A DNA stretch of 30,354 nucleotides from a virus. Positions 12,354 to 29,300 of this stretch are shown here, piece after piece. Position 1 is the first letter of the stretch; every line of letters begins with the position of its first letter. The DNA lies in the IMG/VR virus record IMGVR_UViG_3300042521_004180, positions 1 to 30,354 of that record. One strand, given 5' to 3'. Below the pieces are notes generated by a model. The model had not been told where the DNA came from. It made no database searches and saw only the letters and a list, made by a program, of their open reading frames with translations. Position numbers and translations under genes: made by a program.

Positions 12354-12371
12354 GTTTATCATTGGATAAAC
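12354..12371. promoter_or_regulatory. Perfect hairpin upstream of protease gene
   Basis: GTTTATC (12354-12360) and GATAAAC (12365-12371) form a perfect seven-base inverted repeat with a four-base loop. It lies 20 bases before the protease start, just ahead of its GGAAAG ribosome site. An operator, an mRNA leader stem or an RNase processing site are possible. CATAAT (12347-12352) beside it could be a -10, but no matching -35 is visible. Confidence 0.4.
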
Positions 12372-12391
12372 ACTATGGAAAGCGCCACAAC

Positions 12392-15247
12392 ATGAGCAAT
12401 ATTGCCAATGACTTTACTGAAACTCAATACAAAGCGATTCCTGGGCAAATCAACACGATTGAATCAAAGGGAATAGTTGAGTGTTTTGTTGCGGGCATTG
12501 GCAATAAGGACAGCGTAGGGGACATATGCCTACCTGGTTGCTTCAATGGCTCTCTTGGACGACGCAAGCCTCGCGTTGTATGGGGCCACAACTGGAACGA
12601 ACCAATTGGAAAAGTTCTTGAAATTTACGAAGTTGGACCAAACGACCCACGTCTTCCAGCGAAGATGAAAGCCAATGGTATTGGTGGTTTGTTTGCCAAA
12701 GTACAGTTCAACCTTGCTTCAGAACGTGGTCGCGAAGCATTCGCAAACGTAAAATTTTTTGGTGAAGAGCAAGAGTGGTCAATTGGGTACAAGACTTTGG
12801 ACGCAGTATTCGACACAACAAAGCAAGCCAACATGCTCAAAGAAGTTGAACTATACGAAGTCAGCCCTGTATTGCATGGAGCAAATCAGCTCACAGGAAC
12901 AATTTCAATCAAGTCAGATAAGCAAAACGAAGAAGTCAAGGGCGGACCTTGTTGGGATGGCTACAAGCAGGTTGGGATGAAGAGGGGCAAGAATGGAAAT
13001 ATGGTTCCAAACTGTGTTCCCATTGAGGAAAAAGGAGAAAAGCTCAGGGACCCAAAGGGCGGCCTTACTGCTGCTGGTCGCGCACACTTCAAGCGCACCG
13101 AAGGGGCAAATCTGAAGCCAGGAGTTAAGGGAGCAGCAAATACGCCAGAAAAAATGCGCAGAAAAGGTTCTTTCCTAACTCGCTTCTTCACTAATCCATC
13201 TGGGCCAATGAAGGATGAAAAGGGTCGCCCAACACGCCTTGCGCTTTCTGCAGCCGCATGGGGTGAGCCGGTACCACAGGATGCTTCTGATGCAGCAAAA
13301 CTCGCAGCGAAAGGACGTCGCATGCTTGAGCGTTATGAGAATTCAAAGAAGAAGTCAAGTGAGGTTGAGATGGAAGAAAAAAATATTTCAATCTATTCCA
13401 TCGCGAACCCATCCGAAAATCCAACAATGGGAAGAATGGGTTCAATCGCAAAAGCAATTTCAACTCACTTTGGTGGTGAAGTCGCCGTCCGCGAAGCAGA
13501 CAGCAACAACGTTGTGTTTGACCTCATGAAAGACGGAATGGTTGAGACAATGCGCGCTGCGTACCACACACCAAATGAGTCAGATTTCATGTTTGGCCCA
13601 GCCCAAAAGGTTAGAGTCGAAACAATTTATCTTCCAGTTGATTCAAACGGAGAAACATCTGGAGCACCAATACCAAAAAGTCCGAACATGCTCGCTGCGC
13701 CGAAGCCGGGAGGGTGCGGATGTGGTGGAGCGTGCGGTGGAAAGTCCGACCCATTTTCAAGTTGGGAAGAGTTCAAGAACAACAACCCGGGTGTCCATCT
13801 TTTCATCAAGACAGAAAACATGGAGATGTACGAAGTAGCGAATAACGTTTCTGAGTATCACGGTTTTGACGTCGAGCTACTCGCCGATGGATTTGTTGTT
13901 CCAAACATCGATTGGTACGAAAAAGACGCGCGAAATGCTGTGATAACAGCAATTGAGAACGTTGAACAAAAGGCCATTGCAAGAGCCGCGCGCAGCGCTC
14001 GTGGTATTGGCCGTTCGGCAAGGAGAATGGTTAATCCATCAGAGTTCGATGGAGATGGTGACGGATTCAGAACTGGGCGCGATGGTAGGGATAATGTTCC
14101 ATACAAGAAGCCAAAGGCACCAAAGATGATGCCACCACGAACCGTTCCTCAAGAAGTTCCAGAACGAGAAGAAAAACCACTCAGAATCCCTAAGCCAAAT
14201 GAAATCCCTCGACCAGCACCAGCACCACAGCCGGCTCCCGCACCAGCCCCCGCTCCGTCGGTCCCAACGAGGGTTCCGGAAAGACCCGGTGTTCCTGCAA
14301 CCATCACAGGTCGCATGGGTAAGGCAAACGATGTGAGAAACGGCAAATTTGACGCAGCCATATACAAAGAAAGAATGACTGGAGCATCCCTTGAGGATGT
14401 AGCAAAAAAATACGGCGTAGAAAGAATTGACATCCGTCGAGCCGAACAGCGCCATATGGCTCAAGAAAGAAAACGAACATCTGCCAAAATATCGACACTA
14501 ATGGCCACGGCTCAAGAAAGAATTTCCGCAAGAAAAGGCCCTGTGTCCAAAAAACAGACCAAGAAAGATTTGGAACTCGGCAGAGAAATGGACGCTGAGC
14601 TAACTCGACTTGCGCTCAACAACGGAGTCACCAATGAAGAAGCAGAAAAGATTGCAGCAACCATAAACAGATTAATAGAGCCCGCCATGAAAGTAGGCGG
14701 ACCGCTGTCTTCCAGGGGAACCAGAAGAAGAACGGTTTTGAGCATGTTGAGAGATATGGAAAATGACCCAAACAGCCCTTCTGGAGCCCCAGAAAGAGCC
14801 AAAGAACGGGCAATTCAAAGGGTGGCTGAAGTAAACGAAATGACAGTGGCTCAAGCCAGACGGGCAATAAGACAAGAACTAGCGGCAGAAAGAATGAGAA
14901 CCGCTGCCAATCAGCTTAGAAATAGGAGAAAGTCACTCTCTTCTGTATATGTTTCAGTTTCGGAAGGCAATGACATTTCCGTCAAAACTGCTCTGCAAAG
15001 CACGATTCATGATTCCATTCTCATCAAGGTTGAGCCTCAGCTCATATCGCAAGTAAAACAAGCGGTTGACACTGTTGCTGAATACCACGGCGTACATATT
15101 TCTCGTGCCGAAAATGGAATTAACGTATTCGGAGCGCATGAATTGAATGATGACTCGATTGAGGCTATTTCTCGCGCGATATATGCGTCGTATGTGGATA
15201 GCAATATTGAAGACATCGAAATGGACAGAATTTTCTCGAAGAGATAA
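12392..15247 (+). CDS. HK97-type prohead protease with long multidomain C-terminal extension
   Basis: The first 175 residues are an S78-type prohead maturation protease: H66 in VVWGHNWNEPIG, S130 in EWSIGYK, and an acidic partner in ELYEVSPVLHGAN. A TTG lies ten codons upstream, but ATG 12392 has GGAAAG at good spacing. The rest (to residue 951) is unusual. Residues 185-210 hold a CWDGYKQ...PNCVP Cys-pair motif. Residues 223-316 match a conserved module I recall as DUF6321 (RRKGSFLTRFF, then LALSAAAWGEPVP). There are Gly/Cys-rich turns, an EF-hand-like loop (DGDGDGFRTGRD, 553-564), a Pro/Ala linker (600-635), a TGRM motif at 642, helical regions, and two similar modules containing EYHG (about 468-520 and 865-940). 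The long tail may serve as a scaffold-like or packaged protein. Confidence 0.88.
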   Translation: MSNIANDFTETQYKAIPGQINTIESKGIVECFVAGIGNKDSVGDICLPGCFNGSLGRRKPRVVWGHNWNEPIGKVLEIYEVGPNDPRLPAKMKANGIGGLFAKVQFNLASERGREAFANVKFFGEEQEWSIGYKTLDAVFDTTKQANMLKEVELYEVSPVLHGANQLTGTISIKSDKQNEEVKGGPCWDGYKQVGMKRGKNGNMVPNCVPIEEKGEKLRDPKGGLTAAGRAHFKRTEGANLKPGVKGAANTPEKMRRKGSFLTRFFTNPSGPMKDEKGRPTRLALSAAAWGEPVPQDASDAAKLAAKGRRMLERYENSKKKSSEVEMEEKNISIYSIANPSENPTMGRMGSIAKAISTHFGGEVAVREADSNNVVFDLMKDGMVETMRAAYHTPNESDFMFGPAQKVRVETIYLPVDSNGETSGAPIPKSPNMLAAPKPGGCGCGGACGGKSDPFSSWEEFKNNNPGVHLFIKTENMEMYEVANNVSEYHGFDVELLADGFVVPNIDWYEKDARNAVITAIENVEQKAIARAARSARGIGRSARRMVNPSEFDGDGDGFRTGRDGRDNVPYKKPKAPKMMPPRTVPQEVPEREEKPLRIPKPNEIPRPAPAPQPAPAPAPAPSVPTRVPERPGVPATITGRMGKANDVRNGKFDAAIYKERMTGASLEDVAKKYGVERIDIRRAEQRHMAQERKRTSAKISTLMATAQERISARKGPVSKKQTKKDLELGREMDAELTRLALNNGVTNEEAEKIAATINRLIEPAMKVGGPLSSRGTRRRTVLSMLRDMENDPNSPSGAPERAKERAIQRVAEVNEMTVAQARRAIRQELAAERMRTAANQLRNRRKSLSSVYVSVSEGNDISVKTALQSTIHDSILIKVEPQLISQVKQAVDTVAEYHGVHISRAENGINVFGAHELNDDSIEAISRAIYASYVDSNIEDIEMDRIFSKR

Positions 15248-15250
15248 TTC

Positions 15251-15622
15251 ATGGCTTCAGATTTTTTAAGTCACCTTGCTCGATTGCGCGACAGCGCCAT
15301 AGTGAATCACGACATGAAGTCTGTCAATAAATATAATGATGCAATCGACGACTTTTTGGAACTTAGCAAAAAACAGGAAAATTCGATTGCTCCTCGAATT
15401 GCAAAAAAGAAGTCATCTCGCTTCACTGTTAGCAAGCGGAGACCAAACGTCAGCCGTGAATCCTCTTCTATGGGTTATGCTAAACCTATACATAATCAAC
15501 GGATTTTAAGTAAATACAACTGCATGGTTACCGGAGAAAAGCGCATGAATCCATGCGCTGGCTGTAGTAACGTACAAGGTTGTATTTCCAATTCAATGCA
15601 GTACAAGGAGCACCAAGCATGA
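15251..15622 (+). CDS. Hypothetical protein with C-terminal four-cysteine motif (123 aa)
   Basis: No family recognised. ATG 15251 is three bases after the protease stop, with AGAGA upstream. Its stop overlaps the next start as ATGA. The first 50 residues are helical (FLSHLARLRD, then KYNDAIDDFLEL), followed by a Lys/Ser-rich tract (KKKSSRFTVSKRR). The C-terminus has four Cys (C-x10-C-x2-C-x6-C in the NPCAGCSNVQGC region), probably a zinc site. Very basic middle and zinc-like end suggest a small nucleic-acid or protein-binding factor made together with the acidic protein that follows. Confidence 0.72.
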   Translation: MASDFLSHLARLRDSAIVNHDMKSVNKYNDAIDDFLELSKKQENSIAPRIAKKKSSRFTVSKRRPNVSRESSSMGYAKPIHNQRILSKYNCMVTGEKRMNPCAGCSNVQGCISNSMQYKEHQA

Positions 15623-17130
15623 GCGAAAAAGCAGCAGTCGTAAAATTGAATGCTGACGGCGAAGTTGTTGGCTGCGCCAAGGGCCTTGGCTCGGATGAGT
15701 GTGGATACACGCCAGGCGCAAAAGTTTGTGGAAAGTGCGGAGCAATGGCTGTCTCTGTAAAGAAGAAAGAAGATGTTGACGTTAAGGCCGTCAAGAAGAA
15801 CATGCTGAACATGGCCGCAATGGACTCTGACCTGGATGAAGAAATGTCCATGGAAGATGAAGAAAAAGATGACGACGTGGAAGACATGGAGCTCGTTGAT
15901 GACGAAGAGGACATGGACGAAGAGGACATGGACGAAGAAGACGACGAAGAAGACATGGCCGCAGATGATGACGACGAAGAAGACGAAGACATGGAAGACC
16001 TTGACGGCAAAATGTATGATGATGAATCAGTAGACGAAATGTTCGTCCGTCGTTCTGCGCCAAAGAAGAAAAAGAAAGGCGCCATGATGATGGGGCCAGA
16101 CGCTGAAGTAGAACTAGACGAAGACGAAAAAGACATGGATGGCATGTACTCAGATGAATCTTCAGTTCGCAAAAAGATGCGCAGACGCAGACTCGGAACA
16201 ATGGGGTACAAGTCAGCAGATTTTGACGACAACGCATTCGTTTGTGGATTCGACCGCAAGGTCTACCCAGGCGGCGCAAATGTCTGCGATAGCTGCCCAG
16301 GCGGTTGTGTTTCCGAAAAGGGAATGCCAGCCCTGATTGAAATTGAAGGCATGGCAGAAGACATGTTTAGAGGCAAGGTTCTCGATTCTGGATATTCAGA
16401 TGAAGCAGACCTGTTTATAGTTGATGTTGAGAGAAAAGACGGAAAGCCAGTCGAGGTGTTCTTCGATGGTTCAACCGGCGAAGTCATGGGATGGCACATG
16501 CTCACTCAGGATGTCGTGCAGGTTAAGTCTGCGCTGCAAAACAAGGTGATGATTAGCTTTGGTGAAGCAGCAGATATTGCTGTTAAATCAGTTGAAGGTG
16601 ACATCATTGCTGTTGAACCAGACGTTTTTGAGGGATTTGATGTTTACGCAGTGGAAATCGAGGGCCTCAATGGCAAGTCGTATGACGTGTTTGTTGGGCT
16701 CGATGGTGAAGTGCTTGGATACGATGAATATACGCAAGAAGAAGCTTCAGAGATTGAAGCCGAAGCGGCGGAAATTGCGCTGAAGCGTGCCTACTCGGAA
16801 GATTCGCGCACATCAATGGCTCAAGCCGGGCAGGCTCTTGCAGATGGTTCATTCCCAATCAAGGATGAAGCAGACCTGAAGAATGCAATCCAGGCTTACG
16901 GTCGCGCAAAAGACAAGACAGCAGCAAAAGCTCACATCATGAAGAGAGCTGTTGACCTTGGCATGGAGGAAATGATTCCTTTGAGCTGGGTCTCCAAGGA
17001 AGATATGGACAAAGCCAAAAAGGACTACGCCGCTGAAGAAAAGTCAGAAGTGACGGATTTCTTGTCAAACTTGATGGAATTCGAAATGCTTTCCATCGAA
17101 GAGGAAATCAACGAACCAAAACCTGAATAG
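15619..17130 (+). CDS. Acidic zinc-ribbon/PepSY-like protein with SFPI C-terminal domain (503 aa)
   Basis: ATG 15619 has AAGGAG eight bases upstream and overlaps the preceding stop by four bases. The layout is modular. Two zinc-ribbon-like elements carry Cys at 19, 28, 37, 40 and at 209, 223, 226, 230. Residues 68-178 are extremely acidic (repeated DEEDMD) with a basic KKKKK break near 150. Residues about 240-295 and 315-370 look like two PepSY-type modules (VEVFFDGSTGEVMGW; YDVFVGLDGEVLGY), a fold often found as protease inhibitors or propeptides. The C-terminus (about 390-455) has the SFPIKDEADLKNAIQAYGRA pattern followed by HIMKRA, common near capsid or protease genes of actinophages. It could be a scaffold, an inhibitor of the protease, or a head protein. 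Confidence 0.75.
   Translation: MSEKAAVVKLNADGEVVGCAKGLGSDECGYTPGAKVCGKCGAMAVSVKKKEDVDVKAVKKNMLNMAAMDSDLDEEMSMEDEEKDDDVEDMELVDDEEDMDEEDMDEEDDEEDMAADDDDEEDEDMEDLDGKMYDDESVDEMFVRRSAPKKKKKGAMMMGPDAEVELDEDEKDMDGMYSDESSVRKKMRRRRLGTMGYKSADFDDNAFVCGFDRKVYPGGANVCDSCPGGCVSEKGMPALIEIEGMAEDMFRGKVLDSGYSDEADLFIVDVERKDGKPVEVFFDGSTGEVMGWHMLTQDVVQVKSALQNKVMISFGEAADIAVKSVEGDIIAVEPDVFEGFDVYAVEIEGLNGKSYDVFVGLDGEVLGYDEYTQEEASEIEAEAAEIALKRAYSEDSRTSMAQAGQALADGSFPIKDEADLKNAIQAYGRAKDKTAAKAHIMKRAVDLGMEEMIPLSWVSKEDMDKAKKDYAAEEKSEVTDFLSNLMEFEMLSIEEEINEPKPE
15829..16010 (+). repeat. Low-complexity acidic repeat within the 503-aa gene
   Basis: The DNA contains direct copies of GACGAAGAGGACATG (15901-15915 and 15916-15930), followed by imperfect GACGAAGAAGAC copies. 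They encode runs of Asp and Glu with regularly spaced Met. The repeat makes the reverse strand look like an open Ser-rich frame, which is a shadow. Confidence 0.85.
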
Positions 17131-17200: not shown

Positions 17201-20200
17201 GTGGCTAATTCATATTCCAATTTCGCAGAACGCAGGATAAACAACCTGTCCAAGAATGGCGAATTAGAAATAGGTTTCATTCCCAAAATAGAGACCAAGG
17301 CCGAAAAACCAGAAGTAAATAAGCCTCCAGTAAAATATTCCAACCCGTATGAGGAATATATAAAAACATGGGAACCAGGCGATGTAATACCGCTTGTTCC
17401 ACCAGGGAAGAGAATGCATTTTTGCACTTTCAACCCAAATATGCTGGATACAGATTCAACATTTTTTAGGTCAACACACAAACATTCCTCTCCGACGAAA
17501 TTTAAATCGGGTGAACTGGATGACATCGAGTACAAGGTCCTTGGAAGGAAACTAAAGGACAGCCTTGACTCGCTGCTGCGAAGAGCAGCCAAAACAAGAG
17601 GCTTATGGGTTGACGATAAAAACAAGCTTCGCTGCCCTCCGGGAACACCAGCTGCAAACCAATTTACAGACATAACTGGCTCTAACTGCTTCATACCGTC
17701 ACCAAGAACTGCCGCACAAAGTGGAGCTCGTGCAGTGCGTAGAGCAACAGCTGGCGCCACCCAGATGTCAACCCAGGTTGGCGGAAGAGTTGCTAGTGGA
17801 TTCGATGTAGCTAGAGCAAACGCTGAACAAATTAGAGAACTTGGTTTTGAAAGAGTTCAAGAAGCAATGGGGTACGGTGGCAGAATTGCGCCCACTCCAC
17901 AAATGGTTAGCGATACAGTCTCGGGAGCCATGAGGGCTACGAGGTTTGGTCTCATACCAAACCCTTCAGCTAGAACTGGAGGCAAGCAGCGTGGAGCACC
18001 GAAGGGCGTCGGCAATAATGTGTGGCAACTTGGATTGAAAGAACAAGTCTGGAGAGGCAGAAGAGCCACCGAACTTGCTCGCGACTTGCGGGATAGAATC
18101 AACAACCCAAACCGACCAGACGGACTAAGACTCCCACCGAGTCAGAACTTCCCGGCCGGTAGACCAATCGGCGACATAAGCCAAAAGGCTCAATTCGTTT
18201 CCGCAATGGCCGAACTATTTCCACACGTTCCACAAGCAGAAATAGAAGAAATGTTTGACCAAGCAATTCCAATGAGCTTGAGCAGGATGGAAAGGTCAAA
18301 ACTGAAGGCATCTTTGATTCAATACTGGTACTCCTGGATGGAAAATGCAATTGCAAATCCAGAGCAGGCAAAATGGGTAACCTCTTTCGCGATAGATACG
18401 GAAATGGGGTCAGCGTTCGAAGTTAGATTTGATGCATTTGCTCCCTCTCCCTCCACCGGTGGAAGAAGAATAAGCCAAGCAGCATCAAACGCGGCTCAGG
18501 GAAGAACCGCAGAACAGGGTGGACTTCAGTTCTCCCTTGTTATGAATCCATGGGAAATGTGGTCACAGGTAAATCGCTCGGGCTTTGACAGAAATGGTCG
18601 AGCAAATGGAGTCGCTGATTCTGTTGAGGGTGACATGCACTATTTGGCCAACCATGAGTGGGGTCATGTTGCGCACTTCTCTAATGTCATGGAGACACTT
18701 GGATTCCAAACGCAAAATCTTCAGAGGTACCCGCTTGCGCAAACACTTGTAAAACCACAGCAGGGTGGTCCCCAGTGGCAAAGACAGAAACAAGTCAATG
18801 CATGGATGATTGACTTTAGGCAAGCTGCGAATCCAACAGGAAACAGAAGTATTCAGCTGTTAATCGACTCAGCAAACAATCTAAGCAGAAGGCAATATCT
18901 TCGCTCTGGAAGTTGGGGAGGTTCGACCGGGTACACAAGGCAAGACCTGGAGACCGATTTAAACAATTTTCACAATGCGCTAGCTGAGGCAATTGAAAAC
19001 AACATCACCGATGATGCTGACGACCAGGAGTTGATGAGACAGTTTTCTGGTGGTGTTTATGCGGCAACATCAAACATAGAAGCCCGCGCAGAGTTCTTCG
19101 CATCCCGAAGACTGTTTGGAGACCCGGTACTAACAGGTGGGCAAACAGGAATCCCATCTACGGTTGATGAGTTCGCGCGAACAATGGCCGCAGCCCAGGG
19201 AGCCACACAGACGCAGGCACAATACCGTTCCCAGATGGACGACATTGGACAGAATGTTTTTAGTGTTCCCGGAAACGCATGGAATATTAGTGGTCGCATG
19301 GCTGGTTCTGGATTGCCACAACAAAGGCCAACACTTAAAACGCAGGCCGTCAGAAGAGCTGTGGACCAAAACTATCCACGAAGCAATAGGAATAGGAGTT
19401 CCTCGGCTGTTACTGGAGCTATGAGGTCATCCTCATTACAGCGGAGAACCACTTCTTCTCGCGACTGGAAAAATCAAGACACGATAAGTTCAATAAACAC
19501 AAACAGGCCATTCACCGAAGAGCGTCAATCGCTGCCGGGAATGCTGCAATCAGCATTGGGAACTCAGCAATCATCTACACCAATCGTTGGGAGAATGTCC
19601 CCGCTGGTGCCAACAACGGTCACGGGTGTTAGGAATCGTTTCGATGGCAGCAGGTCTGGTGATGTCAACATCAAGGTCCACGAAATAAACGGCGAAAAAA
19701 TAGTATTTGATAATCCTGACGCAATATCAATCGATGACTCATCAATAAAAATTATTCCTAAAAATCCATTTGAGATAACCGGAAAATCCAGAACCAGTAA
19801 GGAAGGTCGCGAATATTCAGAGAAGTGGCTCAATGCCCATCTAGGCAAAGGAGACATGGATTCGAATGATGTCGACGCCCTTCTGTATCGAGCATCACGC
19901 GGTGACACGGAGGCAGCAAAGGAATTCGATGGTTTAGCGGAAAAAGGAAGCAAGCGAGTCTCTGAAGCAGAAGGAAAATTGTATGAACCCATCGAACTTG
20001 ATGAATACCAGGAAAGAACAATAACCCGAGCTGGTCTTGAAGATTTGAGCCTAGATGACTTGTATGTTGTACATGAAACAAGTTACGAGCCAGAAATTGA
20101 TGAAAATGGAGACATAAGCATCTCTCCTCGTTCTAACTTTGAGGAAACAACTGAATCCGGAAAGAAGGTGAGGGTTCCTCGCCATACGATTCACTTCGCA

Positions 20201-23200
20201 TTAAATCACCTTGTTGGTGGACATATATTTAGGCAGCGCTCAGAAAAAGATACGACTATCTTAATAGCGCCACTGTCTCAGGTGCTAAGAGACAATCCAG
20301 ATTCACTCGACAATCTATATACGCTTGATACTGTTCTTACACCAAAACCTGGTGAGGGGATAAAGCTCAAATCAGGAAGCTTCCGAAGACTCACTGGTAC
20401 ACCAGACAAAGAAGCAACAGAAGAGGCTGTTCGTCAGCAGCTAAACGAAATGGGTGCAACAAAGATTTTTAAAGCAGAATCAGCAGAGTCTTCAACTGAC
20501 GCACAGGATTTAGCAGTCGGCAAAATAGCCAGGCAGCTGAGAACCCAATCGGGATTGCACGCAAACATCCCAAGCGGACAGGTCGAGCAGTATTTGATTC
20601 GCCAGGCTGGAAGTGGTGGTAGCGCTGAAGTGACGCTTCCGCCTAGTTGGGTGGCCGGAATGAGCAAAAACCATCGCCAAAGACTTGGTGATTCAAACTT
20701 CTGGAGCGATGCGAAACCAGCCCCAATCACCGGCTTTATGAGAAGCGGCTCGACCCCACAAGCAGGACAGAGCAGAATCAAGAAAAACAAAGACGGTGTG
20801 CCTCAGTACCCACGGACGCCAACCTACGGTCCGATGCTCGGTGAAACAGAAAATATTTTTGCTGGAGTTAATTCTTGGGAAGAATTTAAACAGAGATATA
20901 ATGACCAGGAAATAGTCTTTCTTGATTATGAAACAACTGGTTTAGTATTCGACAAATATGGTCGCGCTACGGAAAACGGAAATCCGGTAGAAATAGGCGC
21001 AATAAAAGTGAAAAACGGACAAGTAATAGACAGATTCAACACATTTGTCAATCCGGGAAAGCCTCTGCAGCAATGGTCTAAAGACAACTTGCGCGACGCA
21101 GACGGAAACCCCCTCACTGACCAATACCTACAGGGGGCTGAGTCTTTGGAGTCTGGGCACAAAAAACTTGTTGAATTTGCTGGACCGAATGCAATTATGG
21201 GTGTTCAAAACGCCGCATACGACAAGAACGTACTTGAAGACACTCTCCGTGAAGCGGGAATTGAATGGCAAGCAAGGGGCTGGATTGACCTCAAAGATAT
21301 GGCCGGCATGACACTCCCAAGGTACACAGATGAAAATCCGGATGGACCACATAAGACAAATAAAGATGGAACAAAATCACCATCCAATGGACTTGCGGAC
21401 ATAACAAGATACCTCGGGGTCCCTCTTGGCAAAGAGCATCATAGAGCAGACAAAGACGCTGAAGCAACAGCGGAATCAATGCGTCTTTTGATTGATGGTG
21501 CAATTGAAAAGAATTGGTCAAAAGACGCTCTGGATAGAGCCAAGCGAAGTGCGTACGTCAAAAAAACACAAGACGATTTTGACTCAGATGTAAAAGAATG
21601 GGAGTCCGAGCTTGCAAAGTACTTAGGTGATGGAGTGTCGGGAAAGATGTCGTCATCACCTGCTTTGCGCTCTGCTCCACAGTTTGGCAGAAGACAGTCT
21701 CGTGAGTTCTATAGCTCGGTACCAAACAGCAAATTATGGAGACCGGAAACTCTCGAGCAAAGCGAACCATCACGAATTGCGAAAAGACAAGAAATAATCA
21801 AAGACATCAAAGGATTCATAGAGTCTGGCGATGGCGACGCAAAATACATGTCTGCAATGAATGGACTTGACCCAGAATTTGCTAACTACATGCGCAATAC
21901 CGAAGACCGCGAGATTCTGGCAGACCTTCGTCAGGCAGCAGTTGAATTTCATGCTGGCATCGACCAGAGACCACGTATAAACGTAAACACTGCAGAACTT
22001 TCGAGCCTAATGGAAAATGGGCTACGAAGAGACGATTCAGGCAAACCGCGACGTCTGTCAGAGAGAGTAAAAGCCTACGAAGCAGACATTGGAATTTCCC
22101 CAGACCTTCCCGACGCAGAACGCCCAATAACTGGATACATGGTGCATTCCGATGGCGACTTCGCTGAACAAGAGGCTTCATTTAGGGAGTTTTCTAATAA
22201 AGTTGATGTCAATTCTCCACGTTATAAGTTTGACCTTTTTAAGTCAAGTAACGAAAATCGCAACAATGGTTTCAATTCTATTTTTGGTGATGCTGAAATA
22301 ATTCTAAAACCAGAAACCGGCCAAAGGACAGCTTACGGCAACGGTGACGCCCTTGATAATCACATATTTCCCGTCCTGGCAAACTCAACAGATTCTGACG
22401 AAATAGGTCGCGCACTCATTGACCCTAACGGAAGATTTGACGAACGTGAATCAAATTCCATCGAACTTCTCTATGGTAAGTTTAAAAATGATTTCAATGC
22501 CTACAGAAAAGATAATGGTCAAACTCGTCCCCAGATAAGCGGAGCATGGGGAAATAGGGACGCCCTGATTATGGGTGGAATAGAGCCGGGCGACATCGAA
22601 GAGGTGAGGGTTCCGTTTAATTCTCTAGATATTACAAACTCAACTACGCCGGAAGAATTTGCAAAAAAACCAAGAGAACTTAAGTACTTACCCGTTACGG
22701 AGTATGTAGACGAAGGCCCTGCGATTGCTTCCTCCGGCGCAGGAGCACCACCGCCGCCGCCGCCAGGTGACCCTGACAACAACATGACAGACGAAGAAAT
22801 TTCTAAAATTCAAGAAAAAATGAAACGGAGTTTTGCGGCCACAAAAGAAGAGCAAAAAATAATCGAAGATATTTTGTCTGGGGTGGAGCCAATTAATGCG
22901 ATACCCAAAAATTTAGCCATACGAATTGACAACGTTAACGAATACAGGAAAATATCAGACGACTTTAGAAATCTAAGAAGAATTGAAGAAGCCGAAAGAC
23001 TTCAGAGATTAGCGAAAGCAAGAGGTTTTAATCTTGCAGTAACCAATGACTACGGATTGGACGTATTTGATGGGCGCTCATTCTCAAGTAAGGCTCCCAA
23101 GTCAAAAACATCAAAAGAAGTTATTGAGGCAAAAATAGACAAGCAGATAGAAGAACTTGTTGAGTCAATGCGTCAGGCAAAGTTCAAAAACATTAAAAAT

Positions 23201-23278
23201 ATTTCTGACTCCAGAAGCAGACTGGAAAAGATACAGGAAGAGTTTGATAAACTCACAGACGGCAGGAATGAAAAGTGA
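17201..23278 (+). CDS. Giant 2025-aa virion-type protein with zincin and DEDDh exonuclease domains
   Basis: GTG 17201 follows AGGAG at six to seven bases. It is a multidomain protein of unrecognised overall function. Residues 1-165 hold a linker and a Cys module (R144-C145-P, C163). Residues about 470-640 are a zincin: HEWGH at 485-489, with a helix NIEARAEFFASR at 625-636 that can give the third ligand (E627 or E631). Linkers carry G-x-M motifs at 700, 741, 799, 1180, 1483 and 1647. Residues about 950-1060 form an unknown module (DLYVVHETSY start). Residues 1236-1430 are a DEDDh 3'-5' exonuclease: DYETTG (D1242, E1244), QNAAYD (D1341), HHRADKDAE (H1414 or nearby, D1419). A further unknown module at 1640-1815 has an ADP-ribosyltransferase-like look (low confidence), then polyproline near 1850 and a coiled C-terminus. 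It is probably a packaged or ejected protein. Confidence 0.8.
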   Translation: MANSYSNFAERRINNLSKNGELEIGFIPKIETKAEKPEVNKPPVKYSNPYEEYIKTWEPGDVIPLVPPGKRMHFCTFNPNMLDTDSTFFRSTHKHSSPTKFKSGELDDIEYKVLGRKLKDSLDSLLRRAAKTRGLWVDDKNKLRCPPGTPAANQFTDITGSNCFIPSPRTAAQSGARAVRRATAGATQMSTQVGGRVASGFDVARANAEQIRELGFERVQEAMGYGGRIAPTPQMVSDTVSGAMRATRFGLIPNPSARTGGKQRGAPKGVGNNVWQLGLKEQVWRGRRATELARDLRDRINNPNRPDGLRLPPSQNFPAGRPIGDISQKAQFVSAMAELFPHVPQAEIEEMFDQAIPMSLSRMERSKLKASLIQYWYSWMENAIANPEQAKWVTSFAIDTEMGSAFEVRFDAFAPSPSTGGRRISQAASNAAQGRTAEQGGLQFSLVMNPWEMWSQVNRSGFDRNGRANGVADSVEGDMHYLANHEWGHVAHFSNVMETLGFQTQNLQRYPLAQTLVKPQQGGPQWQRQKQVNAWMIDFRQAANPTGNRSIQLLIDSANNLSRRQYLRSGSWGGSTGYTRQDLETDLNNFHNALAEAIENNITDDADDQELMRQFSGGVYAATSNIEARAEFFASRRLFGDPVLTGGQTGIPSTVDEFARTMAAAQGATQTQAQYRSQMDDIGQNVFSVPGNAWNISGRMAGSGLPQQRPTLKTQAVRRAVDQNYPRSNRNRSSSAVTGAMRSSSLQRRTTSSRDWKNQDTISSINTNRPFTEERQSLPGMLQSALGTQQSSTPIVGRMSPLVPTTVTGVRNRFDGSRSGDVNIKVHEINGEKIVFDNPDAISIDDSSIKIIPKNPFEITGKSRTSKEGREYSEKWLNAHLGKGDMDSNDVDALLYRASRGDTEAAKEFDGLAEKGSKRVSEAEGKLYEPIELDEYQERTITRAGLEDLSLDDLYVVHETSYEPEIDENGDISISPRSNFEETTESGKKVRVPRHTIHFALNHLVGGHIFRQRSEKDTTILIAPLSQVLRDNPDSLDNLYTLDTVLTPKPGEGIKLKSGSFRRLTGTPDKEATEEAVRQQLNEMGATKIFKAESAESSTDAQDLAVGKIARQLRTQSGLHANIPSGQVEQYLIRQAGSGGSAEVTLPPSWVAGMSKNHRQRLGDSNFWSDAKPAPITGFMRSGSTPQAGQSRIKKNKDGVPQYPRTPTYGPMLGETENIFAGVNSWEEFKQRYNDQEIVFLDYETTGLVFDKYGRATENGNPVEIGAIKVKNGQVIDRFNTFVNPGKPLQQWSKDNLRDADGNPLTDQYLQGAESLESGHKKLVEFAGPNAIMGVQNAAYDKNVLEDTLREAGIEWQARGWIDLKDMAGMTLPRYTDENPDGPHKTNKDGTKSPSNGLADITRYLGVPLGKEHHRADKDAEATAESMRLLIDGAIEKNWSKDALDRAKRSAYVKKTQDDFDSDVKEWESELAKYLGDGVSGKMSSSPALRSAPQFGRRQSREFYSSVPNSKLWRPETLEQSEPSRIAKRQEIIKDIKGFIESGDGDAKYMSAMNGLDPEFANYMRNTEDREILADLRQAAVEFHAGIDQRPRINVNTAELSSLMENGLRRDDSGKPRRLSERVKAYEADIGISPDLPDAERPITGYMVHSDGDFAEQEASFREFSNKVDVNSPRYKFDLFKSSNENRNNGFNSIFGDAEIILKPETGQRTAYGNGDALDNHIFPVLANSTDSDEIGRALIDPNGRFDERESNSIELLYGKFKNDFNAYRKDNGQTRPQISGAWGNRDALIMGGIEPGDIEEVRVPFNSLDITNSTTPEEFAKKPRELKYLPVTEYVDEGPAIASSGAGAPPPPPPGDPDNNMTDEEISKIQEKMKRSFAATKEEQKIIEDILSGVEPINAIPKNLAIRIDNVNEYRKISDDFRNLRRIEEAERLQRLAKARGFNLAVTNDYGLDVFDGRSFSSKAPKSKTSKEVIEAKIDKQIEELVESMRQAKFKNIKNISDSRSRLEKIQEEFDKLTDGRNEK

Positions 23279-23619
23279 AAAAGTACCTAATCGCCAAAGT
23301 CGGAAAAACTGGGAATCTCTATTTTGTTCCAGATGGCGACAGGTATAACGGCCTGTTTGTTGACGGCAAGAGATTATCCCCAGTTCCGCTGTTTTCTTTT
23401 ATTGAACGACGTAATGACATCTTCCCAGTTATGAAGACCAACAGACAGAAACGTTTCTGGAAGCTAGACTTCAGGGATAGCGACTGGTCCACTAGGCACA
23501 ACACGGAAAACCCTGGAAAAACATCAAAGAACCCCTACAACAAAAAAGCTTTAGACTTTTACGACCAGCTAGAGGAAATTCAGCCAGTCCGCAGGCCAGA
23601 ATTTCGGAAATCTAGTTGA
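23275..23619 (+). CDS. Hypothetical protein (114 aa)
   Basis: GTG 23275 overlaps the stop of the giant gene as GTGA and has AGG eight bases upstream. The protein begins with a strand pair (KKYLIAKVGKTGNLYFVPDG) and then has basic and aromatic residues (KRFWKLDFRDSDW). It ends in a Pro/Arg-rich tail. I recognise no domain. Small proteins of this type between giant genes may be chaperones or adaptors, but this is conjecture. Its end overlaps a TTGACA element that may start a new transcript. Confidence 0.65.
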   Translation: MKKYLIAKVGKTGNLYFVPDGDRYNGLFVDGKRLSPVPLFSFIERRNDIFPVMKTNRQKRFWKLDFRDSDWSTRHNTENPGKTSKNPYNKKALDFYDQLEEIQPVRRPEFRKSS

Positions 23620-23643
23620 CATGTATTTAAATCACAGTATTTT
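23616..23643 (+). promoter_or_regulatory. Candidate promoter (TTGACA - 16 - TATTTT)
   Basis: A perfect TTGACA -35 (23616-23621) is followed after 16 bases by TATTTT (23638-23643). The nearby TACAAT (23647-23652) is an alternative -10 but is 25 bases away. It lies in one of the few real gaps of the right arm (72 bases to the next start) and would drive the last three genes in view. Perfect -35 boxes are uncommon here, so it is worth testing. Confidence 0.45.
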
Positions 23644-23691
23644 GCGTACAATTAAATTCAGGGGTTTATTCACTGGTTGCAAGGAGACCAA

Positions 23692-24336
23692 ATGAGTCTG
23701 GTCAACAAAATTATGAATGGCGATGTCCAAATTGCCGTCGACACAAAAGCAGCAGGACCTGCTGGCGCCATAATACCTCAAGAAAATATTACCGGTGATG
23801 TACTCAGAGGGTATGGACCGCGCAGGGGCAATCTTGAGCGCCTCCTTCGTTACTGGAGACCAATTATGCGCAAGCCTGGCGGGTTCAGGAGATGCCGAGT
23901 AATTCTTGCCGACCACCCAGAGCTTTACCCACTTGAAAGAATATGCGCCTGGTTGCATCACGAAACAACTGGTCTGTGGCCAAATGAAGGGTGCCACCAC
24001 CCAGGAATGAAAAACTGTCGCAAGAAGATGCGCGGGGTTGTTCGTGGCTCACTCTACTCTGACCAGGAATTCAACAATAGAATGCGCAAACTGACATCAC
24101 GCAGTGGCAGGAAGGCTGTAGAATTTACAGGTATACGCTCGGTTGATGAGCCCTTTTCCCCAGTCATCACGCAGGATGATTGGACCCATGCAGTGAAAGT
24201 CTTACAAGATTTCATAGACATGGAACCGGACTTCGTTAAGTACGTGGAAGACGAAAAAAACTGGGAACACGTCGATGGGTATGTTATCGATAAAAACGAA
24301 TTGGAGTCGCTAGATGCGAACAATATTGAGTTCTGA
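23692..24336 (+). CDS. Conserved actinophage protein of unknown function (214 aa)
   Basis: ATG 23692 has AAGGAG five to six bases upstream, an excellent start. An upstream TTG at 23677 is in frame, but ATG is preferred. The middle of the protein has a pattern I have met in phage proteins: LLRYWRPIMRKPGGFRRC, then ICAWLHHETTGLWPNEG and a short basic region. The N-terminus contains NITGD (no GxM), and the C-terminus is acidic. No enzymatic motif is obvious, though clustered Cys/His (CAWLHH; GCHHPGMKNC) could bind a metal. It overlaps the next gene by 23 bases. Confidence 0.75.
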   Translation: MSLVNKIMNGDVQIAVDTKAAGPAGAIIPQENITGDVLRGYGPRRGNLERLLRYWRPIMRKPGGFRRCRVILADHPELYPLERICAWLHHETTGLWPNEGCHHPGMKNCRKKMRGVVRGSLYSDQEFNNRMRKLTSRSGRKAVEFTGIRSVDEPFSPVITQDDWTHAVKVLQDFIDMEPDFVKYVEDEKNWEHVDGYVIDKNELESLDANNIEF

Positions 24337-26365
24337 TTGCTGCCCGTCCCAGGAGATTGTAAAAGTTAGACATATTTCTCCGTCTTTCGCACTATCTAGA
24401 ACTAACCTTTTTACAGCGCCAATTTATTCTGTCAACGAAAGAAAATCAATTATTGATTTCAAATGCGCAATGCAGCGCAGAGGAGTAAAAAGTGCTTACG
24501 AAGTAAAAGTCGGAGCTACTGGCTCGGACAGCAGAATTCTTCAAACTCTCCAGGGACTTGGTTCTGCCGTTACTCCTGGAAACTTTTCCAACGTGCGAAG
24601 TCCTGTTAGGTCACGAATTTACTCAGCTCTCACCCCGGGTGGTGGTCGAGGAGTTCCTGGTGGATTTGGCGCACTCAAGCCAGAGCGTGGATACAGATGC
24701 CCAGAAGGGTATCAATTCGGTGGAAGATTTACGGACTCGCGTTTTTCTACATGTGGAAAACAACTATTCGACCTTCCTGGAATCATAGGCGCAACAATCG
24801 CCTCTGTTTTGCGTGGCTCTCGTCGTAGCCCATCCTTCCAGGATGTCGGTGGCACACGTGTTAAGCCAGTGTCTGTGGCTGGTGACGTAATCCAGTCGCG
24901 CGCGCCACAAATTCCAAAAGTTACTGGTGCTAACAGACAGCGCAGAAATCGCTCCGTCGATGACATAGTCGGACAGATGTCGCAGGTAAATGAAGCCTAC
25001 ATGAGAATGGTGCGGCGCGACGGCTTCATCTTGGAGCCGGTAGTTTCTCCTGCAGTTCTTAGGACAATCCCCGACAACAGGGATATGGAAGGCGCAACAT
25101 TCCTGATGAATGCTTTGACGTCAGATTCAATTGGTGGAGAAGAACTTGGAATGCTTTCAAATACCGGCATTGAAAAAATATCCTATGTCCTATCTGGAGG
25201 TTCAACTGTTTCCATCGGGAAAGCTCGTCCGCTAACAGTTGGAGAACGACGCAAGCTTGGTAGAACTGTGGCCACGGCGGAGAAGCTGCGCGCCAATGAT
25301 GACCCGGTTCAAAAATTAAAATTCATCGCAGAGGAAATGGGCGATGGAATATCTTATGAAGAAGAATTTAAAGGAATGAAAAACCCGAATGAAGTCATTA
25401 AAGTCAACCTCCCAGCAGGTGCTGGCAAGCGAACAATGCGCAGGTGGCATTATGAGACTTTCTACCGAAAGAAAAAGAAGTCAAAGCAGTCCGCTCGCTC
25501 TACAGAGCTAGAAGCAATTCCCGAAGACGATAAAATTAAAGACCTTGCTTCTGCGGTCCGTCACCTTAATAATGGTGGTTCGATTGAGAATATTTCATCG
25601 AATGTTCGGTCGGAGGCTGTCAGTCGTAGCGCAATGTACAAGACTGGAAAAATACGAAATGGTGTATTGATTCACGAGCGTGCCGATGGACAAACGGTGT
25701 TTGAAATAACACCTGATGAGAACTTTGAACATCTGGGTGCCGCACTGGCATCAGAACTACAGCGCTCAATGGGTCTTATTGCGCCAAAGGTTCGTTTGGC
25801 TGGTGCTGGAAAAAAGCGCAACTATATGCTTGGAGAAGCTCAGGATGCAGAAATGTTTGGCGTTCAAGATAGGACAATGGACATTGCTGACCTCCCCTCG
25901 GAGGACGTTGTCGGAATTCTAATGTCCGACTATCTCACCGATACCAGGGATAGAAACCCTTCCACGATTGCGCCAATACGCGTCGGTGGCAGAATGCGTG
26001 CAGTTGCTTCTTTGAATGGAAGTGCTGGTCTCTCGGGTATGACCTCGACGGAAATACGCGGAAGACGACAAATGCAAGTAAACGATTTCTTCAAGAAGAA
26101 GCAGCAGAGAATATACGCTGAATATTTTGAAAAACTTCAGGCCCAGCAGCGCAAGAGGGCGTTAATGCTGTTTGATAAGCTGCTCGAACAAGCAGGAGAA
26201 TTTGATTTTAAGCGATTTAGACAAATGCTCTCAATAGATGGACAGCTTTCTGAAGCAGAATTACTACATCTTGGAATTGTCGAAAAAATATTTGAACAGC
26301 GTGTCAACATACTTAAATCATCATCTGGAAATTTCAAGAAACTGATTGGCTTATCGATTAGATGA
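24314..26365 (+). CDS. Virion-associated protein with Cys module and kinase-like region (683 aa)
   Basis: ATG 24314 has GGAG seven bases upstream. It carries the shared Cys module at R128-C129-P...C147 after a Gly/Pro-rich run. Residues 155-400 hold helical and disordered segments. Residues about 430-600 remind me of a degenerate HipA/PI-kinase-like fold: an EHLGAALASELQRSMGL helix at 472-488, then RNYMLGEAQDAE, and a loop DYLTDTRDRNPSTI (539-552) like the catalytic DRxxxN loop but lacking the terminal Asn, followed by ASLNGSAGLSGM instead of a canonical DxG strand. If real it is probably a pseudokinase. The last 100 residues are a basic coiled coil (KKKQQRIYAEYFEKLQAQQRK, shortened). The stop overlaps the next start as ATGA. 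The overall role is unknown. Confidence 0.65.
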   Translation: MRTILSSDCCPSQEIVKVRHISPSFALSRTNLFTAPIYSVNERKSIIDFKCAMQRRGVKSAYEVKVGATGSDSRILQTLQGLGSAVTPGNFSNVRSPVRSRIYSALTPGGGRGVPGGFGALKPERGYRCPEGYQFGGRFTDSRFSTCGKQLFDLPGIIGATIASVLRGSRRSPSFQDVGGTRVKPVSVAGDVIQSRAPQIPKVTGANRQRRNRSVDDIVGQMSQVNEAYMRMVRRDGFILEPVVSPAVLRTIPDNRDMEGATFLMNALTSDSIGGEELGMLSNTGIEKISYVLSGGSTVSIGKARPLTVGERRKLGRTVATAEKLRANDDPVQKLKFIAEEMGDGISYEEEFKGMKNPNEVIKVNLPAGAGKRTMRRWHYETFYRKKKKSKQSARSTELEAIPEDDKIKDLASAVRHLNNGGSIENISSNVRSEAVSRSAMYKTGKIRNGVLIHERADGQTVFEITPDENFEHLGAALASELQRSMGLIAPKVRLAGAGKKRNYMLGEAQDAEMFGVQDRTMDIADLPSEDVVGILMSDYLTDTRDRNPSTIAPIRVGGRMRAVASLNGSAGLSGMTSTEIRGRRQMQVNDFFKKKQQRIYAEYFEKLQAQQRKRALMLFDKLLEQAGEFDFKRFRQMLSIDGQLSEAELLHLGIVEKIFEQRVNILKSSSGNFKKLIGLSIR

Positions 26366-29300
26366 AAAAAGCAACGGTAATTAGAGACAAGCTCTCTGGT
26401 CAGCCTTTTGCAATACTTCTTCCATCCGATGGAAAGAAGCCAGTTGCATTCGGCTCATCAGGCCAAGGGAGACTATGGGCCGACTGGGCGATGTCGTCCA
26501 GTAGCGGAGCGCTCGACAATCTCGATGTGTCTCTTACCGTTGAAAAAGATGTTGAACTAACCGATGAATTTATAAACTCACTCGAGAGCACTTTTGAACT
26601 TGCCGACTTAAACGAACTCAAATTCACCATCTCCAAAAAGGCGTTGCTGGTCATCGAAAAAGTAAAATCCCTTGCCGGAGAGGAGCCTGCAAAATACGAG
26701 CAGATGAACGAGGATAACGAGGAGGAACTCGTAGACAGATGGCCAGTGGTGGATGCTGCGATTGCGACCATCGATGTTGCCTATAAACAAAATGCTCTTG
26801 ACTACAAAGCAAAGGCTTTCAACCTTGATTCAAAACGCAGCTCAATGCTGCTGCAAGTTAAGGGCGTAAGAGCCATGTGGGACCCAAACATGCCTGGCGG
26901 GGGTGGATGGAGATGCCCTGACGAAACGGTAAATGGTGGCCAGTTCACCAACAGACTTGGTCGTGGGTGCACATTTGGGGCAATACGCAGAATAGGCAGG
27001 GCATTGATGACTGCCTCCCTGAAGGACATTGCAAAGGGTTTTGATGATGATGAGGTGGCCTTTCCGAGCGTCTACAGGGCTGGAAAGAAACTAGACGAGG
27101 TTGGAGAAAAACTTAAAGAAAGAACAGGGAAAAAATACAGCCGCAGAGCGATGAGGAGGGCTGACCAGCTCAAAAAAGAACAAGCTCGTCGGATGCTAAA
27201 AGAATCTCGCCCAACGTTTAGACAAAGATATGAATCGCTTGGGCCAACAGTAAGTAGACGCAACAGGGTCCTAATAGCCGCCTCTCAAACCGCCAGAGAC
27301 GTTGCCGATGACCAGGCAACCAGAGGTTTTGTTTCTGAAGCCAGGAGACGCACTCGCAGACAAGGCATCCCCACAAGAAAAACACCAACAAATAATACTG
27401 AAACCTTCTCAAATGACGACACCATAACTGGCGCCATGAGCCCAGAGCGAAGGGCTCAGATTGCGGAAAAACTGAGAACAACAGCACAAGACATTTACGA
27501 AGGTCGACGTTTTGCAAGACGACAAAAAAAATCGGAACGAAAACAGACAAAAAACTCACCACAACTCAATGAAGCGGAAATAGAGCGCAGCAATAGAGTT
27601 GCCACAAAACAAATTGATTCAATCCTCGGGATACTCAAGCAAAAAGATTCAGGCAGAGAGTATCTTGCTGGTGTTGTGAATTCCGCGGTGAAACAATTGA
27701 CTAATTGGGCTGGAGAAAAAACCGACGGGTTGGGATTTCAATCCGTCAGAAACTACACAAAAGACGACTTTGACGATAACGATGTTCGGACAATTGAAAG
27801 AGCCCTGCGTCAGCTAAAAGAAAACCCAGATAGGCCATTTGCCGAACAACAGTGGGGAAGATTTTCACAATTATTCAAGCTATGGGGGACATACAACTAT
27901 CAAGTAGATAGGGGGTCCCTGTACAATTCCGATGGAAATTTGATTGCTGATTATATTCCAAGATTGAAAAAACCTTCTGGACAAGCAGATGTATTTCCGG
28001 AGCTGTGGATTGATGGGCGTTCGGTCGGTGAGTTTGAGCTTCGTACACCAGAAGAATTAACAGAGCTAAATAATGCCTACGCCACTCTTGGTTTTCTTGA
28101 CATAGACACAAAAGGTCCAGACAAAGACCAGACACTCTCTATGCTCGGCGAGTTTTATTCCGACGAACAAGGGGATGTTTTCGGTGATTACTACAGGCAG
28201 CTTCGCGCTGATGAATCGAAATTTTCCGTGGCGGCGCGAGAAGTTGTGGTCAATGGACTAAAAGGCAATCACGCAAGAGACTTGCGTAAGTTTTTGCATA
28301 ATAAATTTTATGGCTCAACCGCGTGGAACTCTCCAAAGAAAACACCCAACAGAGAAACCGAAATAACACCATCGCGTTCTATCGTGGAGCGTTTTATGCG
28401 TGGACTAAGTCCTTCGCGCGACAAAGAACAACGAACTCTTGAAAGAGAACTTAGAGGGAAGACTCCTCGCAGTACGACCGAATTGCGCGAAAGAATTGCT
28501 CGACGCCAGAGGAGACGAGCAAAAGAGCAGTCTGGGGAGTTGGTCACGTTCGAGGATTATGCAGACTACGAGCAGCTCAAAATAAACAGACCAGAACCTG
28601 TTGGCGGAAAACGAAAGCTCAATGAATTCACGGAGCCAGCGCCACCCGAGCGCACAAGAAGCCGTGCGCGCGCACGCTGGATGACCAAGCCTTCCGGAGA
28701 GGGTCGACCAAAAGTTGACATAATTCTGCGCGACATGGAGCCGCATTTTTCCGCTAGTGGAGATGTAAACGAAAACACCATTAAGGGCCTTGACGACCTA
28801 GATAGATTTTTTCAAGCAGAAGTAAATCATGCCGCAATCGCCAGACTGCGAGAGTCTGCCCTGACTCCATATGACATGGAGAATCAAGGTGAACTTAAAA
28901 AGATTTACAACGACTGGCTGCGCTCATTCAACGACCCAGACGCGGACCCACAACCGGGCTCTCCATCAAACATGGGACTCACAGAGCAGACATCAGTATC
29001 ATGGGTTGTTCCTGGTGAGCCAGGATTTCTTACCAGAGACCTGGATGTGGCATGGAAATTTGCAACTACAGAAGATGCAGATGACATCGCAGACTCCCAG
29101 CGCACGCTAGACGCGGTAGGGGACAGAATCGTTCTCCGAGCAAACCAATTCAATGGACGCCCTGTGGTTTATGTGGAAGACACGGAAGCGCAAGTCGCTC
29201 ACCTTATGACTCCAGATGGAAGGCACCTGATGTCGATTGTGACATCGCGGGATGACTCGGACGAGCCAGGAAAAGTTAGATTCATTGGCGGCTCCGCGGC

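Follow-up and report, generated by a model that had tools for sequence, protein, structure and literature searches.

A two-cysteine module common to otherwise unrelated head-locus proteins of large uncultivated phages, a possible packaging tag

Introduction

Phage T4 packages diverse internal proteins that have only a targeting sequence in common (PMC3012670). This sequence, the CTS, occupies 10-20 residues at the extreme N-terminus (PMC5694885), and is removed by the gp21 protease (PMC3012670, PMC5694885). Ejection proteins of SPN3US and other phiKZ-like phages carry longer N-terminal propeptides of 79-161 residues, some of which are thought to target the prohead (PMC5694885). Polyvalent proteins, finally, are held to be packaged and injected, and a role in processing or in encapsidation has been suggested for their zincin domains (Iyer et al. 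2017, PMC5512222). Beyond the T4 and jumbo groups, it is mostly an open question how tailed phages select large effector proteins for packaging.

Here we analyse a viral DNA stretch of 30,354 nucleotides (IMG/VR record IMGVR_UViG_3300042521_004180; hereafter the window), in which three head-locus proteins carry the same short two-cysteine module, and we consider whether this module could be a docking or packaging tag. Like the T4 signal, it is a short sequence common to head-locus proteins that are otherwise unrelated; it does not lie at the extreme N-terminus, nor is it confined to some 10-20 residues.

Results

The pattern R-C-P-x7-[QR]-F-T-[DN]-x5-C, with 17 residues between its two cysteines, is found exactly once in each of three head-locus open reading frames, as a preliminary description of this DNA had reported (Table 1; we refer to the three carriers as classes A, B and C). 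For the nine late proteins of the window, composition alone predicts 1.6e-8 chance occurrences of the pattern, and none of 2000 shuffles of these proteins contained it. Two of the three carriers are giant, as had been described, while the middle one, at 683 aa, is not; similarly, the Gly-rich stretch said to precede the module is present in the 683-aa protein and in the last protein, and absent from the 2025-aa protein. Across all relatives the module mostly starts 45-313 residues from the N-terminus of its ORF (590-650 in two cases), with up to five copies per genome. We propose that it is a portable element, about 20-35 residues long, in which the Cys pair is obligatory.

Table 1. Features of the head locus in the window.
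Feature	Position	Strand	Details
Portal-MuF fusion	10019..12307	+	PF04860 5.2e-51, PF04233 7.7e-11
S78 prohead protease fused to DUF6321	12362..15247	+	PF04586 2e-10, PF19846 2.7e-29
Different two-Cys module in the protease fusion, CWDGYKQVGMKRGKNGNMVPNC	12950-13015	+	residues 197-218, after the S78 domain
123-aa ORF with Cys cluster, NCMVTGEKRMNPCAGCSNVQGC	15251..15622	+	sequence
Acidic 516-aa protein with Cys clusters	15580..17130	+	PepSY 0.004, weak, below cut-off; gene directly ahead of class A
Class A carrier, 2025 aa	17201..23278	+	module at 144-163; HExxH zincin-like motif 485-489 with E627/E631; DnaQ/RNase_T-like exonuclease ~1230-1465
Module copy 1, RCPPGTPAANQFTDITGSNC	17630..17689	+	residues 144-163 of the 2025-aa ORF (class A)
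Class B carrier, 683 aa	24314..26365	+	tail 1-198 with module; domain ~205-385; HipA/CtkA/PI4K-like kinase domain ~405-680
Module copy 2, RCPEGYQFGGRFTDSRFSTC	24695..24754	+	residues 128-147 of the 683-aa ORF (class B)
Class C carrier, N-terminal 1331 of 2129 aa	26362..30354	+	cut by the window end; full 2129 aa in a 160-kb relative (L004)
Module copy 3, RCPDETVNGGQFTNRLGRGC	26911..26970	+	residues 184-203 of the last ORF (class C)

The gene order around the three carriers is a repeated one, running from a terminase on the opposite strand through portal-MuF, the S78 fusion, the acidic Cys-cluster protein, A, small ORFs, B, C and further ORFs to the major capsid protein; the class C gene is present in one to three copies, or absent. 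PepSY domains, to which the acidic protein has its sub-threshold match, are inhibitory parts of some zincin peptidases. A module-profile search, proposed in the preliminary description as a check, recovered the module from 17 related records of 54-160 kb. Each of them holds 2-5 copies, and the ORFs that carry these are large and lie close together in the head locus. The exception among the profile matches is one marginal Cys-less copy (RIPAGYPNAGQFTE, E 1.6e-4) in a 133-aa ORF of a module-bearing record. Two side observations concern neighbouring genes: a LLRYWRPIMRKPGGFRRCRVILA..HPELYPL..ICAWLHHETTGLWP domain that forms a separate ORF in the window (23677-24336) is part of the S78 protease protein, as a fusion, in a second phage (L175:4780-6882), and the N-arm of some capsid proteins (YSALPSGTPGSFGTIQRD; L445, L446, L174 and others) weakly echoes the class A PxGTPxxxxF, without Cys.

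Outside the module, each carrier family has domains of its own. In the class A family HExxH with its distal E is nearly invariant and has no Pfam peptidase match; we call these proteins zincin-like from this conserved motif alone. RNase_T/DnaQ domains occur in 7 of 21 class A members and an ADP-ribosyltransferase in one of the 21. The predicted class B structure, compared with the PDB by Foldseek, gave 4pu4 HipA (5.4e-5) and 3akl CtkA (8.6e-5) as best matches (probability 1.00, E 5.4e-5 to 9e-5, TM-scores modest), and its fold predicts a HipA/CtkA-like kinase. Class C shows a weak PI3/PI4-kinase match in 3 of 15 members and none in the window's own protein. The carriers had been described as virion-type proteins; given a putative zincin/exonuclease and a predicted HipA-like kinase, they are better read as effector cargo, and they look like virion-delivered effectors. 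Effector-type enzymes would also suit a role after injection, in which the module steers the enzymes to a target in the cell by binding to nucleic acid, metal or a host factor, and several basic residues do surround it in classes B and C. Against this stand the occurrence of the same module on unrelated enzymes, presumably with different targets, and the lack of any meaningful match to it in PDB sequences or Pfam, and we give such a role little credence.

That the rest of these proteins is unrelated had been claimed from the window, and comparison of complete family profiles by hhalign agrees: each pair of families gave one match, with the module at its centre (A-C, 57 columns, E 1.9e-8; B-C, 25 columns, E 2.9e-6; A-B, 53 columns, E 1.1e-6). 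Within the families, sliding windows of 20 residues rank the module first in all three, the top class C window overlapping it. Its mean pairwise identity is 0.80 in A (a value partly due to selection by the search pattern), 0.74 in B and 0.66 in C, compared with 0.32-0.37 for the class A zincin region.

A DNA-level search of IMG/VR with the Q form of the pattern returned at least 120 stretches. Among the matches listed, 119 lie in frame in ORFs that measure 136-3257 aa from stop to stop, many of them cut by the fetched stretch; the consensus among these listed matches is RCPPGTPAANQFTDxxGSNCF for class A, RGYRCPEGYQxGGRFTDxxxSTCGxxLF for class B and WRCPxxTxxGGQFTNRxGxGC for class C, with a C' form RCPxGTRYGGQITDRFGRNC. 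Since pattern matches are uninformative on the pattern positions themselves, we relied instead on two unbiased recruitments. A domain that follows the module in class B recruited 80 relatives, 79 of which have the module, the 80th being a truncated contig; the two Cys are exactly 17 apart in 79/79, while R or T is changed in six. Recruiting through the neighbouring S78 prohead protease gave the module in 34 of 38 loci, counting only those with at least 5 kb downstream, and in the remaining four one giant protease ORF occupies nearly the whole fetched stretch. The exact spacing and pattern hold for the three window copies but not for all divergent relatives, where R, P, F, T and the spacing vary and both Cys are kept: the copies RCSFGPNANQYTDEFGTNC, RCLGGPAANRFTNIFGVGC and RCPPNAGDTAGQFTNRFGRGC have altered spacing and have lost P or F, and retain both cysteines. 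Two ORFs contain two modules each (L075:2265-9566 and L129:5694-7202). The idea of a common handle on different head-locus proteins is thus strongly supported, by module-only homology, strict conservation in relatives recruited without regard to the module, clustering in the head locus and absence from the records' other ORFs.

All phages found with the module are uncultivated. Isolate phages were searched by tblastn with two kinds of query, the module regions of classes A, B and C' and the full-length class B protein; these returned nothing or chance-level matches, and a module-profile search of five isolate actinophages gave no match. Six pattern matches were obtained from 84,980 prokaryote genomes; the two in frame with a module (L167, L169) both lie in one Phycisphaerae MAG, at low coverage, and are probably binned phage contigs. 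We dropped a host inference from this MAG, as it alone holds in-frame prokaryote copies. The module is not described by any match in Pfam, NCBIfam, the PDB or text, and no paper was found in the literature for its motif strings. A profile search of the PDB gave a single short match, to complement receptor repeats, which we judged to be chance.

Cysteine is scarce elsewhere in the carriers (0.10% outside the module in class A, 0.04% in class C and 0.34% in class B, compared with 0.86% in the window's other genes), and the module Cys are the only two in the part of class C that the window contains. Carriers A and C being otherwise almost Cys-free, and the Cys being invariant while adjacent residues and spacing vary, the pair might join A, B and C to each other, through inter-protein disulfides or a common metal, or act as a redox switch that the reducing cytoplasm opens once the proteins are ejected; the clustering of the three genes in one locus is in keeping with this too. 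Conservation, however, extends over the whole 20-residue motif rather than the Cys alone, which suggests a specific binding surface, and we regard a complex or switch of this kind as rather unlikely. A single small disulfide or zinc fold, as had been anticipated, was not seen in AlphaFold models of the class A and B copies: the class B copy has pLDDT ~40-46 and lies inside a low-confidence tail that runs to about residue 198, ahead of confidently modelled domains, and the class A module region has pLDDT 65 and pTM 0.33, with short strands only at 75-79.

The major capsid protein is usually the main substrate of prohead proteases. In these loci it lacks the module and has 0-1 Cys, and the portal and tail ORFs gave no module-profile match. 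Both results weaken the protease-guided step that the preliminary description had offered. In the form considered here, the S78 prohead protease would recognise the module and remove the N-terminal region during head maturation; a Cys pair would be an odd demand for a cleavage site. Although the protease gene is nearby and conserved, and although a module 130-200 residues into the protein is at a distance similar to the 120-160-residue propeptides of SPN3US head proteins (PMC5694885), we consider a processing signal improbable.

Other short two-Cys elements are present in the same phages. CWxGYxQxGMKxGKxGxMVPNC follows the S78 domain (L312, L315, L319 and others) and is found again in small proteins encoded downstream of class B, where GCxG..WMPC accompanies it; the latter element, a weak DUF3721 match, also occurs near the start of proteins ahead of the capsid gene. 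DUF3721 (PF12518) itself has no match in the A, B and C carriers and only a weak one in the giant protein ahead of the capsid gene. In a 160-kb relative (L171:9676-20000) a giant ORF of more than 3400 aa, with Zeta-toxin, NUDIX, sigma70 region 4 and DnaJ matches, lies between class C and the capsid gene; in the part read, its only two Cys form the 17-spaced GCIG..WMPC element and the RCP-type module is absent, which implies that the tag is not required by every candidate cargo. These elements resemble the RCP module in being short, two-Cys and carried by large head-locus proteins, some very Cys-poor, but differ from it in consensus and in their placement on the protease fusion and the proteins ahead of the capsid gene rather than on A, B and C. 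Their occurrence in the same head loci means that the RCP module may belong to a small kit of such elements.

A Cys-less motif, R-x-P-x-G-x3-G-G-Q-F-T, has about 70 copies in other phage proteins, many of the form W[DN]ExxHPRxPxGxxxGGQFTSGGG and some in proteins with an ADP-ribosyltransferase or with protease-capsid fusions. A tie between this GGQF motif and head loci was rejected: with the queries at hand, relatives of a portal, MuF, protease, terminase or capsid protein could be detected at only 10 of the 76 loci. A relation to the module is possible, the residues common to the two being imposed by the search pattern. The module could accordingly be a branch of an older Cys-less linker that marks domain boundaries, with no docking role, for which the many Cys-less copies, one of them in a module-bearing record, might be cited; the shared positions, however, are those that the search imposed, 20 residues would not stay nearly fixed in a mere linker, and we find this origin very improbable.

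Some isolate phages show motifs of a different kind. Gordonia phage GMA6 (L163) and Brevibacterium phage Cantare (L164) have proteins between portal and capsid gene with a KVRxxxGxxYGxPxGTxI-like motif. The VRxxxGxPxGTxI-like motif of these two phages is absent, by regular expression, from Gray and DalanDe, and a general rule of lineage-specific tags in Gordonia and Brevibacterium phages is no more than a lead. In Streptomyces phage Gilgamesh, gp48 (L162:22709-36583), a protein of 4624 aa with zero Cys encoded after the portal, has EVKAARRKWNPALHPRDSKGRFIETGG near its start, in a context similar to that of the class C module region.

Discussion

We lean slightly towards reading the module as a portable docking or packaging tag that loads effector proteins of one large-phage lineage into the head; of the handles that had been envisaged, docking or sorting into the capsid fits best with the sequence evidence. 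Such a tag is supported by the module-only homology of A, B and C, its top conservation and its unbiased recovery (79/79 and 34/38); by its 2-5 copies clustered in the head locus and the repeated gene order; by the effector-type domains of its carriers (exonuclease, ADP-ribosyltransferase, HipA/CtkA-like kinase); and by the few Cys outside it in A and C, the low-confidence tail around the class B copy and the precedent of T4 (PMC3012670). We count against it the internal position, unlike the terminal 10-20-residue T4 signal, and complex formation or an in-host function would account just as well for a conserved linear element.

If the module is a docking tag, a single factor in the assembling head would recognise it after translation in the N-terminal regions of all carriers. 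This factor might be the acidic Cys-cluster protein, whose gene directly precedes class A, or another scaffold or protease component. The Cys pair might fix the shape of the tag loop, via a disulfide or a common metal. Recognition of this kind would place the putative zincin/exonuclease, the predicted kinase and the class C protein inside the procapsid before DNA entry. As their domain content and gene position suggest, they could then exit together with the DNA and be active in the cell at an early stage, a route already proposed for polyvalent proteins. A broader and more speculative possibility, which we hold to be doubtful, is that large phages of the HK97-protease type use interchangeable two-Cys mini-modules (RCPxG..FTD..C, GCxG..WMPC, CWxGY..VPNC) as a head-assembly address code, with one or more of them on every giant effector or head protein, read by a common head component and able to load arbitrary enzymes into the virion.

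A strictly conserved, portable and easily mutated element in hundreds of environmental phages would make the packaging question testable. The module would flag candidate cargo proteins of uncultivated phages from their genes and, like the T4 signal, might serve as a means of bringing foreign proteins into phage heads.

Comparison with known systems

Polyvalent proteins of phages and conjugative elements (PMC5512222) resemble the carriers in being multi-domain and encoded beside virion genes of portal-terminase phages, with exonuclease and ADP-ribosyltransferase domains; the zincin-like domain of the carriers is a putative further parallel. Class A indeed combines several enzymatic domains near virion genes, while a Pfam search at E 0.01 matched no named large-polyvalent-protein domain family in it; class B differs, being kinase-type and of modest size. 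A text search of Iyer et al. 2017 (PMC5512222) found no description of cysteines or of a short motif. The propeptides of SPN3US and other phiKZ-like phages are, like the module-bearing regions, long N-terminal stretches, but a T4-type protease cuts them at a motif of the A-x-E type and no common Cys module has been described for them (PMC5694885).

The closest parallel is the T4 CTS of internal proteins and Alt, one short sequence on diverse packaged effectors of a myophage with a prohead protease, as the module is one short sequence on diverse candidate cargo proteins. The module differs in being internal and longer and in its obligatory Cys pair; we know of no Cys pair in the T4 CTS. We therefore suggest, as our best reading, that the module is comparable in role to the T4 CTS without being a member of that class. 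Targeting sequences of the T4 type are known; what appears to be new is a candidate two-Cys tag, probably comparable to them in role, common to unrelated head-locus proteins.
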